From a virus: a stretch of DNA of 39,558 bases. The notes below the pieces were generated by a model. That model was not told where the DNA came from, made no database searches, and was given only the letters and a program-made list of their open reading frames with translations. The position numbers and the translations under genes are program-made. Below are positions 1-9,619 of this stretch, one piece after another (the first letter of the stretch is position 1; every line of letters begins with the position of its first letter). The DNA lies in IMG/VR virus record IMGVR_UViG_3300010157_000124, positions 1 through 39,558 of that record; one strand, written 5' to 3'.

Positions 1-2463
1 TAAACTTTGTCCAACTTTATTCTGATTTGCTTTTATCTCTTGTTCTGCTTTTGATACAGAATCAATACCATCAGTAATTCTTTGTTGATCGCTTCTAGTA
101 TCAATTGGTTGATTTGGATCATTCATTTTACGATCAAACTCAGATATCTGTTTTGTTTGATCATTAACATTCAAACTTTGTCCAACTTTATTTTTATTTG
201 GAGAAACCTCTTCTCCAGGTTTGGTTGACATTGATTTGTTGATTTGATTTTCCCCATAGACAGGTTTTCCATCAACAATTGTACCAACTTTACTTTGTGT
301 TGGTCCAAACAATCCCCCAAAAGCATTTCCGATTCCTTGTCCTAATCCTTGAACAGAACCAAGAACCGATTGTCCCATACCCAACGCACCTTGAGCAACT
401 CCCATTCCTCCACCCATACCCCCTCTTCCCATATTCTGAATACCTTGGATTCCAGACATAATGCCAGAAGCACTACCAAGAGTTCCCATAATACTTCCCA
501 TATTATTACCAGCACCAGATAACATTGGAGATGTTTGTCCTAATGCTCCTAATATTGATCCGGCAGATCCAATTGCAGATCCTGCCATTCCAATACCAGA
601 CATTGCCCCGCCAATTCCACCCATACCTCCTCTTCCCATACCACCAAACATTTGTCCCATCATCATACCTTGTTGAGCGGTAGACAAAACTCCTTGTAAT
701 GCTCCCATAGGATTCATTGATTGTTGGGTCATTGGAGTTACTCCCAAATTAACTAAATTTGGAGATGCTTGTTGTTGTGGTGCGGAAGATTCTTTTTTTG
801 CTGTTAATTGAGATTCTTCTTGAGTTTGATCTTCTCTTTGAGCAGTTTCAGAAGTTTCTTCTTCCTCATCCTCTTCTTCTCCATCTTCTTTTTTCTTTTT
901 ATCTCCTCCAACTTTTTCTGCTATTGTAGATAACAATGAAACCATTTGTTGGAAATAATCGGTATATCCTCCATCAGAAGATTCGGAAGATTCTTTTGTT
1001 TGTTTTTGTCCTTGTTCAGTCAGAATTGGTTCATCCGATTCTTCCATTTCGGATTCTTCTTCCTGATATTTTCCACCTTCTGGAACTTGAGATTCTTTTG
1101 TTGCCATTTTTGATGGTTCTTCCGAATCTTCACCCCATAAAGGTTTTGTTGCCCAAGATTTAATTTTACTCCAAGTTGAAGGTTCCGAATCTTGATTTTC
1201 TACTAACCTTGTTGTAGATTCTCCTTCTTTTGGTTGTTCTTCTTTTGGTTGTTCTTCTCTATGTTCTTTTGAAAATGCCATTGCTTTTGAAATTTGTTCG
1301 GAAGATGTTCCGGTTGATTGTCCAAATCTAGATTTTCCAGTATTTGGATCAGCAATAGATGCCCACTCTTTGGATAAACTTGTTTGGAAATCCTTTTCTG
1401 ACATTTTCCCAGATCTAAACTTAGAGTATCCTCTACCTTCAAGCAAACTTCTTCCTATTTTGTCTTGTAATTCTGGAGTAAATTTATCTTCATCAGAAAA
1501 TCCCAACTCCTTTTGTTGTGCCGCAAGAGTTCCCTGAACAACTTGATATTTTCCAACAGCCCCAGTTCCTTGATTTGTCCCTGGAATTTTTCCTCTAGTC
1601 GCAGCAATTTGTTTTTTTTGAAATTCTTTAACTTCACCAACTGTCATTTCAGATAGTGGTTTTTCTGGTTTGCCATATTTACCAAAACCATAAGGAACAT
1701 CATATCCAGACTCAAATCCACTTTTTTTCGCCCTTTCATCAGAGGTTCCTTCTCCTTGTGTTATTCTGTCTAAGAGTGCCTTTGTTCCTTCATCAACAGA
1801 AGTTCTTATTTTTGATCCTGGTTTTCCGACATCATCCCATTTTCCAAGTCTTGGATCTGAATCTTTTTCTCTTCCTGCTATTCTTCCCCCAGCCCAACCC
1901 AATCCACCAGCAATTGCTCCAGGAATTCCTCCCGTGAGAGCTCCAGCAGTAACACTTCCAGCAAGTCCCCCAGAAACTCCAGAATATCCAGCTAGAATTG
2001 ATCCAAACGTTCCCAAAATAGGAATAATTGATTTTAGTGCTTTTCCTAATCCCATAATTCCTGCGGCAGTTCCAGCAATATCTCCAAGTCCTGATGATTC
2101 TCCACGAAAATTCTTATCTAATAATTTTTTAATGTTTTCGTCAATACTAGCAAATATTTGATATTCTCTTATTGCCGAAGAATCTGTTTGGAATTCTTTT
2201 GGCACCAATGATTGTTTTAATTTATCATCTTGATGTTCTTGTCTTTCAAAACTTAATTGTGTTTGTAGGATAGAATATATGTCAGTTAATGCTCTGACAA
2301 TTTGTTTATCTCCATCGGTAGTTCCTGTTTGGACAGATTGGGACCCTTGCTGAACAACAGTAATATTTTGTACTGGAGGTTGTGTTGGTTGAGCCATACG
2401 AAACCCACCAGAATTCTGGTTTCTTAATGTATCTGCTATTTTAGCAATTCCCGAATCTGCCAT
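1..2463 (-). CDS. Putative tape-measure/tail lysozyme protein, partial (C-terminus beyond the window)
   Basis: An open frame of 821 codons runs from ATG at 2463 off the left edge without a stop. AGGA lies 7 nt before the ATG. Order: hydrophobic, Gly/Ala-rich stretch at about residues 128-200; a lysozyme-like domain at about 225-370; a charged, Glu/Lys/Gln-rich linker at about 385-565; a Gly/Met-rich segment at about 585-720; then polar sequence with a repeated NKVGQSL element. The lysozyme-like domain resembles lambda gpR (GH104 transglycosylase): a GEGT motif with the likely catalytic Glu at 238, then YDV, GAVGKYQ and EWASIAD blocks in the same order. It directly follows a gp26-like gene with a -1 frameshift extension, the position of a tape measure in lambda-type tails. 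Inferred role: sets tail length and locally digests peptidoglycan during injection. The lytic domain is fairly secure; the tape-measure role is positional. It could instead be a separate hub lysozyme. Confidence 0.7.
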   Translation of the reverse strand, partial: MADSGIAKIADTLRNQNSGGFRMAQPTQPPVQNITVVQQGSQSVQTGTTDGDKQIVRALTDIYSILQTQLSFERQEHQDDKLKQSLVPKEFQTDSSAIREYQIFASIDENIKKLLDKNFRGESSGLGDIAGTAAGIMGLGKALKSIIPILGTFGSILAGYSGVSGGLAGSVTAGALTGGIPGAIAGGLGWAGGRIAGREKDSDPRLGKWDDVGKPGSKIRTSVDEGTKALLDRITQGEGTSDERAKKSGFESGYDVPYGFGKYGKPEKPLSEMTVGEVKEFQKKQIAATRGKIPGTNQGTGAVGKYQVVQGTLAAQQKELGFSDEDKFTPELQDKIGRSLLEGRGYSKFRSGKMSEKDFQTSLSKEWASIADPNTGKSRFGQSTGTSSEQISKAMAFSKEHREEQPKEEQPKEGESTTRLVENQDSEPSTWSKIKSWATKPLWGEDSEEPSKMATKESQVPEGGKYQEEESEMEESDEPILTEQGQKQTKESSESSDGGYTDYFQQMVSLLSTIAEKVGGDKKKKEDGEEEDEEEETSETAQREDQTQEESQLTAKKESSAPQQQASPNLVNLGVTPMTQQSMNPMGALQGVLSTAQQGMMMGQMFGGMGRGGMGGIGGAMSGIGMAGSAIGSAGSILGALGQTSPMLSGAGNNMGSIMGTLGSASGIMSGIQGIQNMGRGGMGGGMGVAQGALGMGQSVLGSVQGLGQGIGNAFGGLFGPTQSKVGTIVDGKPVYGENQINKSMSTKPGEEVSPNKNKVGQSLNVNDQTKQISEFDRKMNDPNQPIDTRSDQQRITDGIDSVSKAEQEIKANQNKVGQSL

Positions 2464-2477
2464 TTTAGTATCCTATT

Positions 2478-2714
2478 TTAATGATTATTAATTCTATCAT
2501 TTTCGTCTTGAATATATTTTTCTAACTGCGAAATATAAATGTCTCTTTCCCAAGGTAACATAGTCTCAATCTCTGTTAAACTATATTTGTGATGTTGCAT
2601 TAAAACAAAATTGATCTTATAGTAATTACCAAGATTATCATTACCAAGGGTTAGTCTAAAAAATTTTGAATGCCCTCTAATATTATGGAGTGCTTGTGTC
2701 CACACTTTGAGCAA
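2478..2714 (-). CDS. -1 frame extension of the gp26-like protein (GT/gp51-like tail chaperone part)
   Basis: This frame overlaps the 3' end of the gp26-like gene and is the -1 frame relative to it. Its only early start is a TTG at 2714 with no good ribosome site, and its first ATG lies inside the conserved-looking part (MQHHKYSLTEIE). It is therefore probably read by ribosomes that slip at 2657-2663, adding 59 residues (RLTLGND...DRINNH) to residue 239 of the gp26-like protein, for a fusion of about 298 residues. The tail is rich in charged residues and probably helical (TEIETMLPWERDIYISQLEKYI). I recall similar short sequences beside gp26 in marine T4-like phages. By analogy with lambda gpGT it would recruit tail subunits onto the tape measure. 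It ends 14 nt before the next gene. Independent translation from the internal ATG, giving about 40 residues, is the alternative. Confidence 0.65.
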   Translation of the reverse strand: MLKVWTQALHNIRGHSKFFRLTLGNDNLGNYYKINFVLMQHHKYSLTEIETMLPWERDIYISQLEKYIQDENDRINNH

Positions 2715-3373
2715 GTTACTTTCAACTCTTGAGAAACTTTTGGAAGTTTTGCAAAATAATTTTCTATAAGTTTAAATTGTTCAACACTAAGGGATTCAAT
2801 AAAATCTATCATTTCCTGATGGGTCGCTTCTTTTGGATAATAGAAATTATTATCATCAAAAATATAATCTATACAATCAATAATAGCATCAAAAGTTTTA
2901 TCAATGATGTTATTATCACCACTTAACTTCTCAATAGTTTTGAAATTTGGATATTTGAATTTAATTCCAACTTGATCATTTATCTTTATAGTATCATTAT
3001 AATCCTTTAGATTAACATCAATATCTAATAAATTAATATTTACTGGCATTAAATTTTTACAACTTTCTCCATCTGATATCTTATTTTCACATCTATATTT
3101 TGCTTCAACAACTTCTCCAATTGATCTTGCTCTCAAATGTAAGAAGAAAAATTCAAGATCTAATGAAGATAATTCATCAATTTCAATTTCTGATATACAA
3201 CAGTTTTTTATAATCTGTTTCATATTTTCATTGACAAAATCTTTTTCTTCAGATTGAATAGCAATCATTAGAATTTTTTGCTCTTTAACAAGAAATGGTC
3301 TAAATTTAATCTTCTCTTTCAATATTGGAAGAAAAACTTCATATACTGGAGTTTGTATCAATGGTAAATTCAT
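2651..3373 (-). CDS. 26: gp26-like baseplate hub subunit / tape-measure chaperone
   Basis: The 240-residue product matches the T4 baseplate protein family that includes gp26: an N-terminal block (YEVFLPILKEKIKFRPFLVKEQ), an acidic middle, and EIDELSSLDLEFFFLHLRARSIGE. Cys95, Cys105, Cys221 and Cys224 (CSKCGHKH at the end) could form a zinc-ribbon-like site. ATG at 3373 is preceded by GAGG about 8 nt upstream. The family acts in assembly of the baseplate hub and tail tube core; in T4 gp26 is a minor, possibly catalytic, hub component. The last codons include a slippery heptamer, so the gene likely yields two products, this one and a -1 fusion. It sits between the tube-fold gene and the tape-measure candidate. 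Family assignment is good; the exact role is inferred. Confidence 0.8.
   Translation of the reverse strand: MNLPLIQTPVYEVFLPILKEKIKFRPFLVKEQKILMIAIQSEEKDFVNENMKQIIKNCCISEIEIDELSSLDLEFFFLHLRARSIGEVVEAKYRCENKISDGESCKNLMPVNINLLDIDVNLKDYNDTIKINDQVGIKFKYPNFKTIEKLSGDNNIIDKTFDAIIDCIDYIFDDNNFYYPKEATHQEMIDFIESLSVEQFKLIENYFAKLPKVSQELKVTCSKCGHKHSIILEGIQNFLD
2657..2663 (-). promoter_or_regulatory. Candidate -1 ribosomal frameshift site (T TTT TTA)
   Basis: Read on the minus strand in the gp26-like frame, codons are CAA AAT TTT TTA GAC TAA. The heptamer T TTT TTA is a canonical X XXY YYZ slippery site in the correct phase, and A AAT TTT directly before it is also of that form. Only one codon separates the site from the zero-frame stop. 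A -1 slip enters the open frame that ends at 2478. No strong downstream hairpin or pseudoknot is evident by eye; the CTTGGTAAT element occurs twice just downstream. Confidence 0.7.
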
Positions 3374-3403: not shown

Positions 3404-4066
3404 TTATATAAAAGGCGCTTGTAATGTTATATTTTTAAACATATTATCAGTAAAATAACGAAACGCAAATGTCACTGAAAGTTTATTAATTGTATTTTGT
3501 GCTTCCCAAGATAGTGGCATGGCATTTACACTAATTGGGAATGCTTCTTTTAGAATGGATTTGTAAGCATCTCTACCATCTAATGTTTTTTGAGTTACTG
3601 TTATATTTGTCGCATAATTATCTTTATATTCAAAGTCAAACGCAAGTCTTCCAAATGATTCTCCTCCTATACCAGGAATTGCGGAATAGTAATTTGCGGA
3701 AATAAAACTTAACCAAGCATCAAAAAATACCTTTTCTCTCATATCATCAGAGCATAAGAATGAAAGTGTTATTTGATCATATGCGTTTTGTACTGGAAAT
3801 TTATTAACAGGACCATAAGTTTTTTGTTCAACAATAGCGAATGTTCTTCCAGGCAACTCTGCGGAATCACATCTCAAAGATAACGTACTTCCTAAACCAA
3901 CCCCAGTCCAAGCAGCTTTTAGTTCAGCAGAAGTTGGATCTGAACTTATAAAATTGTTAATGAGATTTAATAGTCCCCCAGGAACTCCAATATCAACAGT
4001 AAAGTTGTATGCTCTTGATAGTTCTGTATTATTAAATGAAGAGACAAAAGTTGATATGTTTGACAT
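3404..4066 (-). CDS. Tail tube-fold protein, gp19/gp54 family (probable tail tube initiator)
   Basis: The 220-residue protein has the signature of T4 gp19-family tube proteins: an N-terminal strand (LSRAYNFTVDIGVPGG), a central LRCDSAELPGRTFAIVEQKTYGP block, then FPVQNAYDQITLSFLCSDDMREKVFFDAWLSFI. T4 gp19 (tube), gp54 and gp48 (tube start) share this fold. Its place among hub genes, beside gp26 and away from any sheath gene, favours a gp54-like initiator linking hub and tube over the main tube protein. At 220 residues it is shorter than T4 gp54 and closer to a bare tube domain. The start is 5 nt after the upstream gene's stop with no clear Shine-Dalgarno, suggesting coupled translation. The fold is confident; the paralogue choice is not. 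Confidence 0.75.
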   Translation of the reverse strand: MSNISTFVSSFNNTELSRAYNFTVDIGVPGGLLNLINNFISSDPTSAELKAAWTGVGLGSTLSLRCDSAELPGRTFAIVEQKTYGPVNKFPVQNAYDQITLSFLCSDDMREKVFFDAWLSFISANYYSAIPGIGGESFGRLAFDFEYKDNYATNITVTQKTLDGRDAYKSILKEAFPISVNAMPLSWEAQNTINKLSVTFAFRYFTDNMFKNITLQAPFI

Positions 4067-4815: not shown

Positions 4816-5280
4816 CTATTTATTCTTTGGTTTTTTGCCGAAAAGTTCATTTTCTGTTAGAATCTTAAATTCCCAACCACGTTTCTTACAAAATTCTTGT
4901 GCTGCTTTCCATTTGGCAGAATTTACACCCCAAGTACAAACTTCATTAATATAATTTTTTGTTACTCTTGATTTTGGAACGGGCGCTTGTGTCTGAGCAT
5001 ATGGTTTTACTTCAATTAAATATTCGGCAATAGTTCCATCCATTTTTTTAACTTTAGCATAGAAATCTAAAAAATATCTATGGTGTTTATTATCAACGGG
5101 AGATATATATGGAACAACGTGTTCTTCCGATGACCACTCAATAACATTTTCATTTTGATCCAACCATATTTGTACTTTTTTTTCCCAAGAAGATCTAAAT
5201 ATTATATTGCTGACATCTCCTCTATATTTTTGAGGATTTTTTGGAATATAGATTCCTTGTTTATATTTGTGACCTGCCAA
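4816..5280 (-). CDS. 4: gp4-like head completion protein (PD-(D/E)XK nuclease fold)
   Basis: From TTG at 5280 the product is 154 residues, close to T4 gp4 (about 150). TTG is preferred because GGAG lies 5 nt upstream, the protein then begins MAGHKYKQG like its relatives, and the alternative start at 5349 would add a 23-residue hydrophobic leader and overlap the divergent gene. Conserved features are PKNPQKYRGD, SSWE (Glu33), WSSEE, HRYFLDF (Asp72) and IEVKP (Glu90, Lys92), the residue pattern of a TnsA-like restriction-fold nuclease, followed by YINEVCTWGVNSAKW. In T4, gp4 completes the filled head before tail joining. It is the first gene of the leftward operon, behind a candidate late promoter at 5312-5319. 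Confidence 0.88.
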   Translation of the reverse strand: MAGHKYKQGIYIPKNPQKYRGDVSNIIFRSSWEKKVQIWLDQNENVIEWSSEEHVVPYISPVDNKHHRYFLDFYAKVKKMDGTIAEYLIEVKPYAQTQAPVPKSRVTKNYINEVCTWGVNSAKWKAAQEFCKKRGWEFKILTENELFGKKPKNK

Positions 5281-5298
5281 AACTACTCCAAAAAATGA

Positions 5299-5306
5299 TA
5301 TAAATA
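5299..5306 (+). promoter_or_regulatory. T4-type late promoter (TATAAATA)
   Basis: A perfect TATAAATA box lies 34 nt before the gp48-like start at 5341, in the short gap between divergent genes. T4-family late promoters consist of this single -10 element, read by the gp55 sigma factor with the gp33/gp45 coactivators. It would drive the rightward baseplate operon. Confidence 0.75.
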
Positions 5307-5311
5307 ATAAG

Positions 5312-5319
5312 TATTTATT
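5312..5319 (-). promoter_or_regulatory. T4-type late promoter, minus strand (AATAAATA)
   Basis: The minus strand reads AATAAATA here, a one-base variant of the late box, 31 nt upstream of the TTG start of gp4. With the plus-strand box at 5299-5306 it forms a back-to-back pair whose predicted start sites overlap. Confidence 0.55.
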
Positions 5320-5340
5320 CCATTTTTTATTAAAAATTTT

Positions 5341-6282
5341 ATGGCACAACCAACTATTCCAGGTACTCCCCCATTAGCAGAACTAACTGGAAATTTACCA
5401 TTTCCATATCTAACTGCCCCATATGATTTTACCAGTTTGAAATATCCACAAGATATTGGACATGATATATTTCAAGGACATTATATAAATTTTTATATAA
5501 ATGTCCACAGAGCAAGTGACTATTTTAAGGGAGCATCTTTCACATATGGTGGAGCACCATCAACATATATTGCGTTGGATGAAAATGGAAGTCCAACAAC
5601 TAGTTGGGGGACTTCAGCACAAAGAATGGCATATAATAGAATCAGTCAGGCAATTTCTTTATATATTCCGGATACTATGCAGACCTCCCAAAGTATTGAA
5701 TGGGAAAATTCAAGTCTATTACAACTTGGTGAACAAATGGCAAAGGGAGGCGGAAATTCTAAGGGAGCTGGAATTTCTTCTGGTAGTAGCAGTTTGAAAG
5801 CAAAGGCAATGAATGCTCTGAGGTCCGTATCTACTATTTTTGGTAAAGCTGCTGAAATTACTGGAAATGTTGGATCTATTGCTGGATTCGCAATGAACCC
5901 ACAGTTATTAGTTCTTTTTAGAGGTATTGATCCAAGAACATTTCAATACGAATTCTATTTTACTCCAAGAAATGAGGATGAATCAAACTCTGTTAAGAAT
6001 ATCATAAGAGCATTTAGATTTCATTCTCATCCGGAAGCAAATCTTCTTGCTGGGGCATTTTTTACTGCCCCATCAACATTTGATATAGAATTTATCCATA
6101 AGGGACAAAGAAATACAAACATTCACCAAATAAAAACTTGCGTACTTAGAAATTATACTTTAGATTATGCTCCATATGGTTGGTCAACATATAAAGATGG
6201 TATGCCAGTACAAACTAGAATGGTTTTAACCTTCCAAGAAACTGATCTAATTCAAAAATCTGATATTGAGAAAGGATATTAA
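5341..6282 (+). CDS. 48: gp48-like baseplate tail-tube cap protein
   Basis: The 313-residue protein has the layout of marine T4-like gp48: an N-terminal LKYPQDIG block followed by YINFYINVHRASDY, a Gly/Ser-rich variable middle (about residues 135-185), and a conserved C-terminal tube domain with FRGIDPRTFQYEFYFTPRNEDES, FRFHSHPEA, STFDIEFIHKGQRN and PYGWSTYKDGMPVQTRMVLTFQET. T4 gp48 sits on the hub with gp54 and starts tube polymerisation; T4 gp48 is about 364 residues. It is the first gene of the right operon, 34 nt downstream of a late promoter box, and is followed after 2 nt by gp53. The opposing gp4 gene lies just to the left. Confidence is high for the family. Confidence 0.85.
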   Translation: MAQPTIPGTPPLAELTGNLPFPYLTAPYDFTSLKYPQDIGHDIFQGHYINFYINVHRASDYFKGASFTYGGAPSTYIALDENGSPTTSWGTSAQRMAYNRISQAISLYIPDTMQTSQSIEWENSSLLQLGEQMAKGGGNSKGAGISSGSSSLKAKAMNALRSVSTIFGKAAEITGNVGSIAGFAMNPQLLVLFRGIDPRTFQYEFYFTPRNEDESNSVKNIIRAFRFHSHPEANLLAGAFFTAPSTFDIEFIHKGQRNTNIHQIKTCVLRNYTLDYAPYGWSTYKDGMPVQTRMVLTFQETDLIQKSDIEKGY

Positions 6283-8690: not shown

Positions 8691-9053
8691 ATGAGTGCGA
8701 TGAAAAATAAAAAGAATTTTCCAGGGTTAGATGGATTTGTCTGGTGGACAGGAATTGTTGAAGGAAGGCAAGATCCATTAAAACTGGGAAGAGTTCAAGT
8801 TCGTTGTTTTGGGTGGCATACCGAAAGTAAACAAAATATTCCTTCGGATGAATTACTTTGGGCACACCCAGCATTTGCTGCTAATGTATATCAAACAACC
8901 CACGTTCCAAAAGAAGGAGAAAACGTTTTTGGATTTTTTATGGATGGTGAAGATGGACAATTCCATTCTATTTTGGAGTTATCCCGGCAATTCCTGGAAA
9001 AATATATCCAAAAACTGAAGGATTTTCTGATCCTGGTGATGATGCTGATGTAA
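8691..9053 (+). CDS. 5: gp5-like baseplate spike protein, N-terminal part (frame broken)
   Basis: Residues about 12-90 form the gp5 N-terminal OB domain: FPGLDGFVWWTGIVEGRQDPLKLGRVQVRCFGWH, then ELLWAHPAF and GENVFGFFMDGEDGQFHSIL. After HSIL (about nt 8974) this frame turns into unrelated sequence and stops at 9053. The expected continuation (GVIPGIPGKIYPKTEGFSDP) is present in the -1 frame from 8975, so one base, most likely a G in the GG at 8975-8976, is missing. The OB domain binds the hub in T4. No true stop or insertion is seen at the break. A sequencing or assembly indel is the simplest explanation; programmed slippage is less likely because no canonical heptamer is in phase. Together with the downstream part it makes a protein of roughly 309 residues. 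Confidence 0.8.
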   Translation: MSAMKNKKNFPGLDGFVWWTGIVEGRQDPLKLGRVQVRCFGWHTESKQNIPSDELLWAHPAFAANVYQTTHVPKEGENVFGFFMDGEDGQFHSILELSRQFLEKYIQKLKDFLILVMMLM

Positions 9054-9076: not shown

Positions 9077-9619
9077 TTGGGAAAACCAACAAGATATCCA
9101 AATATACAGGATTTGGATGAACCAACGACATCCAGATTGGCAAGAAATGAAAATATAGATAAAACCCCATTAGGAGGAGCATATGCTGCTAATTTTAAAA
9201 AATTAGCAGCAGACGTTGTAGCATCAGAAGCAACCGGGGGGACAGATACCACCCAAATTTTAGCATCTGGACTTCTGGAAATTTTAGCATCAGAAAAACC
9301 ATTTTATGCTGCAAAATATCCATATAATTGTTCAGTTATGACAGAATCCGGACATTATATTGATTATGATGATAGTCCAGGTGCAGAAAGAATTACTCTG
9401 CTTCATAGAACCGGAAGTTTTTTGGAATTGAAACCAAATGGTGATGTTAGATTATATGCTGCAAATGATTTATATCTCACCGGAGAAAAAAATGTTTATA
9501 TTACTGCCAAAACAAAAATGATTCATAATAAGGCAGTTACTGAAATTCTTGAAGAAATTCAAATGCTCAAACATACCACAAAGGGCATTCATATTGACAA
9601 CATCGGTTATCACTACTAA
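9077..9619 (+). CDS. 5: gp5-like baseplate spike protein, C-terminal part (continues the same gene)
   Basis: This frame is open from 8951; 9077 is merely its first ATG. The true sequence runs on from the gp5 OB domain through PGIPGKIYPKTEGFSDP and DDADVKRRPIPVHLGKPTRYP. The rest contains PTTSRLARNE, EKPFYAAKYPYN, ESGHYIDYDDSPGAERITLLHRTGSFLELKPNGDVRLYAANDLYLTGEKNVYITAKTK, which is the VgrG/gp5-type transition into a beta-helical spike. T4 gp5 has a lysozyme domain between OB fold and spike; here there is none. The spike is short, ending ILEEIQMLKHTTKGIHIDNIGYHY. It would pierce the outer membrane. gp25 follows after 11 nt. Confidence 0.8.
   Translation: MGKPTRYPNIQDLDEPTTSRLARNENIDKTPLGGAYAANFKKLAADVVASEATGGTDTTQILASGLLEILASEKPFYAAKYPYNCSVMTESGHYIDYDDSPGAERITLLHRTGSFLELKPNGDVRLYAANDLYLTGEKNVYITAKTKMIHNKAVTEILEEIQMLKHTTKGIHIDNIGYHY

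Follow-up and report, generated by a model that had tools for sequence, protein, structure and literature searches.

Does the gp26-like gene in this stretch of DNA from a marine T4-like virus end where its reading frame ends, or is a second, longer product made by ribosomes that slip into an overlapping frame? We addressed this question in the window, by which we mean the whole 39.6-kb stretch that was analysed (IMG/VR virus record IMGVR_UViG_3300010157_000124; 39,558 nt), and among its relatives in public phage records. A two-form arrangement of this kind has a precedent in phage lambda, whose slippery heptamer, GGGAAAG, is unlike the T TTT TTA found here. The short and long forms of lambda, G and GT, act on the tape measure protein and the tube subunits and then leave, and a 2016 review of recoding describes the G-T frameshift as conserved among long-tailed phages "except T4" (PMC5009743). 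Judging from sequence comparisons, the gene in the window very probably encodes a lambda G/GT-type tail assembly chaperone, with -1 ribosomal frameshifting predicted to yield its two forms.

The feature lies on the minus strand, a point on which the preliminary description was silent, and its parts are collected in Table 1. The gp26-like frame ends CAA AAT TTT TTA GAC TAA, just as that description had read it, and T TTT TTA is a canonical slippery heptamer in the right phase. Its product scores 187.6 bits against PF12322, for which the curated cut-off is 24.5. The overlapping frame is displaced by exactly -1 and is open from stop to stop between positions 2771 and 2478 (minus strand), which fits the tail and the fusion of 298 residues originally proposed; the 59 residues added after the slip would be RLTLGNDNLGNYYKINFVLMQHHKYSLTEIETMLPWERDIYISQLEKYIQDENDRINNH. 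This tail matches phrog_634, "baseplate hub assembly catalyst" (gp51; E=3.2e-26), as well as the C-terminal end of phrog_150 (E=1.8e-10).

Table 1. Coordinates of the chaperone locus and its flanking genes in the window.
Feature	Position	Strand	Remarks
Tail tube protein	3404..4066	(-)	Upstream neighbour; phrog_45 E=4.7e-31, PF23849 E=2.6e-8
gp26-like ORF; predicted short form of the chaperone (TAC-N, lambda gpG-like)	2651..3373	(-)	240 aa; PF12322 T4_baseplate E=3.4e-55; phrog_150 baseplate hub E=1.9e-58
Shine-Dalgarno-like AGAGGG	2673..2678	(-)	9 nt upstream of heptamer; candidate dnaX-type stimulator
Slippery heptamer T TTT TTA	2657..2663	(-)	In phase; ends 3 nt before 0-frame stop
-1 frame tail	2478..2657	(-)	59 codons + stop; gp51-like domain (TAC-C, lambda gpT-like)
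Next gene downstream	1..2463	(-)	821+ aa, cut by window edge; putative tape measure by position

A relative of gp26 is present in 972 public phage records and the tail in 743. About 300 loci were fetched, and their gp26 and tail ORFs were detected with profile HMMs; with identical sequences removed, the unique set comprised 188 loci with a separate tail ORF, and grouping of loci below 70% nucleotide identity gave 79 clusters. The separate tail ORF is in the -1 frame for 243/243 gp26 ORFs and in the +1 frame for none. An in-phase T TTT TTN heptamer is found in 187 of the 188 unique loci, the sole exception being Vibrio phage YC (Ackermannviridae), and in all 79 clusters; the TTT codon lies 6–9 nt before the stop in 178 loci of the unique set. 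The preliminary description had proposed asking of related phages whether the heptamer and the -1 phase are kept, and both are. Pelagibacter phage Mosig and the group of locus L061 were considered as exceptions and rejected as such: their heptamer is present earlier, and the 0-frame end is longer. The A AAT TTT that was noted before the heptamer is indeed there in the window, but it is not conserved (26/187 loci), and we rejected it as a second conserved heptamer.

Conservation of the heptamer is far beyond chance. Its seventh base is free (A in 32, C in 96, T in 45 and G in 14 of the 187 loci), and the codon that precedes TTT specifies Ser, Asn, Asp, Thr, Ala or Gly, yet always ends in T. As background, 36 in-phase TTTTTT were counted among the remaining 40,766 codons of these genes, where Phe is spelled TTT in 72% of cases and is preceded by T in 27%. 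TTT occupies the site in 79/79 clusters against 56 expected, and is preceded by T in all of them against 50 expected. A synonymous-site null gives a log10 P of about -29 over the 79 clusters, a value that ignores tree structure and is therefore overstated.

The tail might instead be a separate small gene, gp51, that is started after gp26 termination by reinitiation or translational coupling. Many records annotate it in this way (P-SSM2, S-PM2 and phiM12, for example), and most database annotations assume it; a -1 frame ATG close to the stop is present in 37 of the 187 loci, and an ATG overlaps the gp26 stop in Ackermannviridae and Schizotequatrovirus. Against this stands the position of the remaining starts. 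In 130 of the 187 loci the -1 frame has no ATG, GTG or TTG from its upstream stop until more than 5 codons past the slip, and thus no start codon before the conserved first residues of the tail. Conservation of the tail begins at the first codon past the slip and, because the 0-frame has already ended there, belongs to the -1 frame itself. The overlap in the window has no ATG, as the preliminary description stated, and its TTG and GTG codons precede the slip by 57 and 48 nt; the first -1 frame ATG comes 57 nt downstream of the slip, and no Shine-Dalgarno sequence can be seen ahead of it. Many loci have a Met some 57 nt past the slip, which was rejected as the tail's own start, given that a Shine-Dalgarno 4-mer precedes the ATG in 1 of 163 loci and that conserved residues precede the Met. 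A separately started gp51 also leaves unexplained why the heptamer is invariant and why it is lost from the gp26 of T4-type phages, in which gp51 has a full gene of its own. In T4 gp51 itself, the gp26-like domain and the segment homologous to the tail form one uninterrupted chain. We regard a separate start as very unlikely. The preliminary description had looked ahead to relatives that keep both frames without the heptamer or with a good start of their own; what we found is that the heptamer is kept and that most loci lack a usable start.

The T4 group provides a control. Genes 26 and 51 of T4 lie on opposite strands, and both products belong to PF12322 (E=8.8e-64 and 3.9e-52, respectively); T4 gp51 in addition matches phrog_150 over positions 3–248 (E=2.6e-84), tail domain included. 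Since both proteins fall in PF12322 and the match of gp51 to phrog_150 is near full-length, T4 gp51 corresponds to a long form encoded by a single ORF and gp26 to the short form, and the two are paralogues. Straboviridae gp51 is likewise a single ORF (33 fused ORFs in the locus set). The window protein belongs to the same PF12322/phrog_150 family and its tail is homologous to the C-terminus of T4 gp51, but in the window and its marine relatives the long form is encoded across two frames, whereas T4 has two genes. Where the long form has a gene of its own the slippery site is missing: T4-type gp26 keeps Leu-Lys-Glu-Phe-Phe, spelled mostly GAA/GAG TTC TTT, and an in-phase T6 run was found in no T4-type gp26 examined. 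The literature lists both T4 proteins among the chaperones of hub assembly and reports that the finished particle lacks gp51 (PMC3004832).

A different arrangement is seen in Salmonella phage SKML-39, Dickeya phage Coodle and Vibrio phage YC, all of the Ackermannviridae, and in the unclassified Vibrio phage K364. Their gp26-like gene has no heptamer, and the next ORF starts at an ATG that overlaps the gp26 stop (TAATG). Compared with the tail domain, this ORF gives an hhalign probability of 95%; HMMER, applied to three sequences, scores two of them at 19–23 bits and K364 at 2 bits. These matches suggest a third mode of expression, in which the C-terminal domain is made on its own from the TAATG ORF by reinitiation.

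Sequences on both sides of the slip were compared with control regions. Upstream, a Shine-Dalgarno-like match of at least 4 nt is present in 97% of loci versus 32% at control positions, mostly at a spacing of 8–10 nt from the heptamer. Codon choice at the site is skewed accordingly: the Glu codon there is GAG in 66% versus 23% elsewhere, and the base before that codon is G in 44% versus 10% elsewhere. The stimulator in dnaX has a similar spacing. In the window the AGAGGG is a candidate stimulator of the slip.

This upstream element also bears on a reading in which slippage occurs during transcription of the T run, so that a mixed mRNA pool encodes both forms. A poly-T run does sit at the junction, and it is 7–8 T long in 45 of the 187 loci. 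It is exactly six in the other 142, which makes transcriptional slippage unlikely; T runs of six are shorter than it usually needs. Moreover, what is conserved is the in-phase heptamer with its free seventh base and not the length of the run, and a Shine-Dalgarno-like element at 8–10 nt is a ribosomal signature. With these points taken together, slippage by transcription is about as hard to credit as a separate start. That the heptamer has no function and only reflects a Phe-Phe/Leu motif conserved in a genome rich in A+T is already contradicted and keeps next to no probability: Phe-Phe is conserved in the protein and TTT is the usual Phe codon elsewhere in these genes, but TTT and the T before it exceed expectation across the clusters, the -1 frame beyond the 0-frame stop encodes a conserved protein, and T4-type gp26 retains Phe-Phe mostly as TTC TTT.

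Downstream of the heptamer, ribosomal frameshifting may receive help from RNA structure in some lineages. The 70 nt that follow the heptamer fold more stably than shuffled sequences (mean z of -1.4, versus -0.4 in control regions). A long-range stem pairs nt 14–25 with nt 110–121, counting the heptamer as nt 1–7; it is 11–12 bp long and begins 7–8 nt past the heptamer, and its other arm lies in the PWER(E) codons, some 90 nt beyond. At least 5 expected pairs in this stem were obtained for 28.7% of 136 dereplicated loci, versus 0.7% after a synonymous re-draw of codons (paired t = 6). Pelagibacter phage Mosig, Methylophilales phage Melnitz and locus L061 are among those that have it; the window, P-SSM2 and S-PM2 do not. 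A downstream stimulatory structure in the window was accordingly rejected (fold z = +1.4; pairing in the long-range register, 0.0), and because the stem of some relatives is missing there, a 3′ stimulator is not evident. RNAalifold over the whole family returned no single consensus structure, and as column-wise covariation is weak at that scale, we treat the stem as a lineage-specific candidate. We give roughly even chances to a broader scheme in which one family has taken three routes, namely -1 frameshifting (marine, Vibrio, Sinorhizobium and other phages), two paralogues (the T4 group) and a TAATG C-terminal protein (Ackermannviridae), with the frameshift tuned by the Shine-Dalgarno-like element and, in about one-third of lineages, by the long-range stem.

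If the window gene is expressed by ribosomal frameshifting, most ribosomes would terminate at TAA and yield the 240-residue short form. A minority would slip one base back at U UUU UUA, re-pairing from UUU UUA to UUU UUU, and would then translate 59 more codons, with either Leu or Phe expected at the slip; the AGAGGG 9 nt upstream probably holds the ribosome back at the heptamer. The resulting long form of 298 residues would end in the gp51-like domain. If lambda is a guide, numerous short forms and a few long ones may cover the tape measure protein and bring in subunits of the tail tube.

As for lambda G/GT, a short protein with what would be a rare -1 extension is encoded between the tail tube gene and a putative tape measure gene, and the context is that of a T4-like tail module: the upstream genes on this strand encode the tail tube, the DNA end protector (gp2) and the head closure protein (gp4), and the opposite strand has genes for the baseplate and the tail-tube cap. 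The preliminary description took the next gene downstream for a tape-measure candidate. Its position speaks for this, as does its equivalent in phiM12, which is annotated as similar to tape measure proteins; the profiles do not, there being no Pfam match and only a weak, short match to a PHROG of unknown function, so that the identification is positional only. The product is rich in Gly, Ser and Gln, and its full-length homologue in a 96% identical contig has 934 aa.

Several side observations concern these neighbours. The product of the downstream gene has a Gly/Met-rich segment and a middle stretch, residues 301–381, that matches phrog_30077. Judged by eye alone, it looks like a lytic domain; in cyanophage S-N03 the equivalent gene carries a chitinase annotation. 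The product of the head closure gene (gp4; 4816–5349, minus strand) has a match at E=3.5e-22 to PF08722, the N-terminal domain of TnsA-like endonucleases. Two adjacent plus-strand ORFs, 8691–9053 and 9077–9619, match positions 4–94 and 329–398 of phrog_430 (baseplate hub subunit and tail lysozyme), and are possibly a reduced or split gp5 gene.

Structures predicted with AlphaFold2 had a mean pLDDT of 92 for the window gp26 and 90 for a T4-type gp51. The gp26 model resembles viral baseplate hub proteins, with TM up to 0.85. Foldseek against the PDB gave no significant match for either model, and the HK97 tail assembly chaperone 2ob9 matches the gp26 model only at E=2.8.

Vladimirov, Gautam and Davidson reportedly noted in 2022 that frameshifting appears conserved in several T4-like groups and that T4 uses genes 26 and 51. 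They identified the tail assembly chaperone genes of T4-like phages (T4 26 and 51; Virology 2022, 566:9-15). Two papers that cite them add to this: the PRFect paper states that some T4-like phages have a short gene and a long fusion gene with no frameshift, and a 2025 paper on phage Adele that poly-T slippery sequences are known in T4-like TAC-N genes (PMC12846349). The core of the finding is thus already known, since the T4-like tail assembly chaperones were described in 2022. Pseudomonas phage Adele itself (Vandenendeviridae/Andersonviridae, PMC12846349) is similar in having a -1 slip at a poly-T stretch that ends TAC-N, with a -1 frame open in all relatives; it differs in its GTTTTT motif and in belonging to other phage families. 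Our search of the cyanophage literature found no prior report beyond citations of Vladimirov et al. The Shine-Dalgarno-like element, the long-range stem and the TAATG overlap of Ackermannviridae may be new details, which the 2022 paper could include.

The tail frame is unannotated in the records of S-WAM1, ACG-2014h, metaG-MbCM1, avDM6 and AS-yj, and in those of P-SSM2, S-PM2 and Mosig the annotated gp51 start falls within the real -1 frame or shortly after its beginning. In many public records the long form is annotated wrongly or is missing, gp51 having an incorrect start or no entry.

For the family as a whole, the apparent T4 exception to a conserved tail-chaperone frameshift is removed, as published in 2022, and large comparative support is added from uncultured marine phages. 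Lineages that frameshift and lineages with two genes exist side by side, a natural experiment on what makes phages hold the ratio of short to long form constant.
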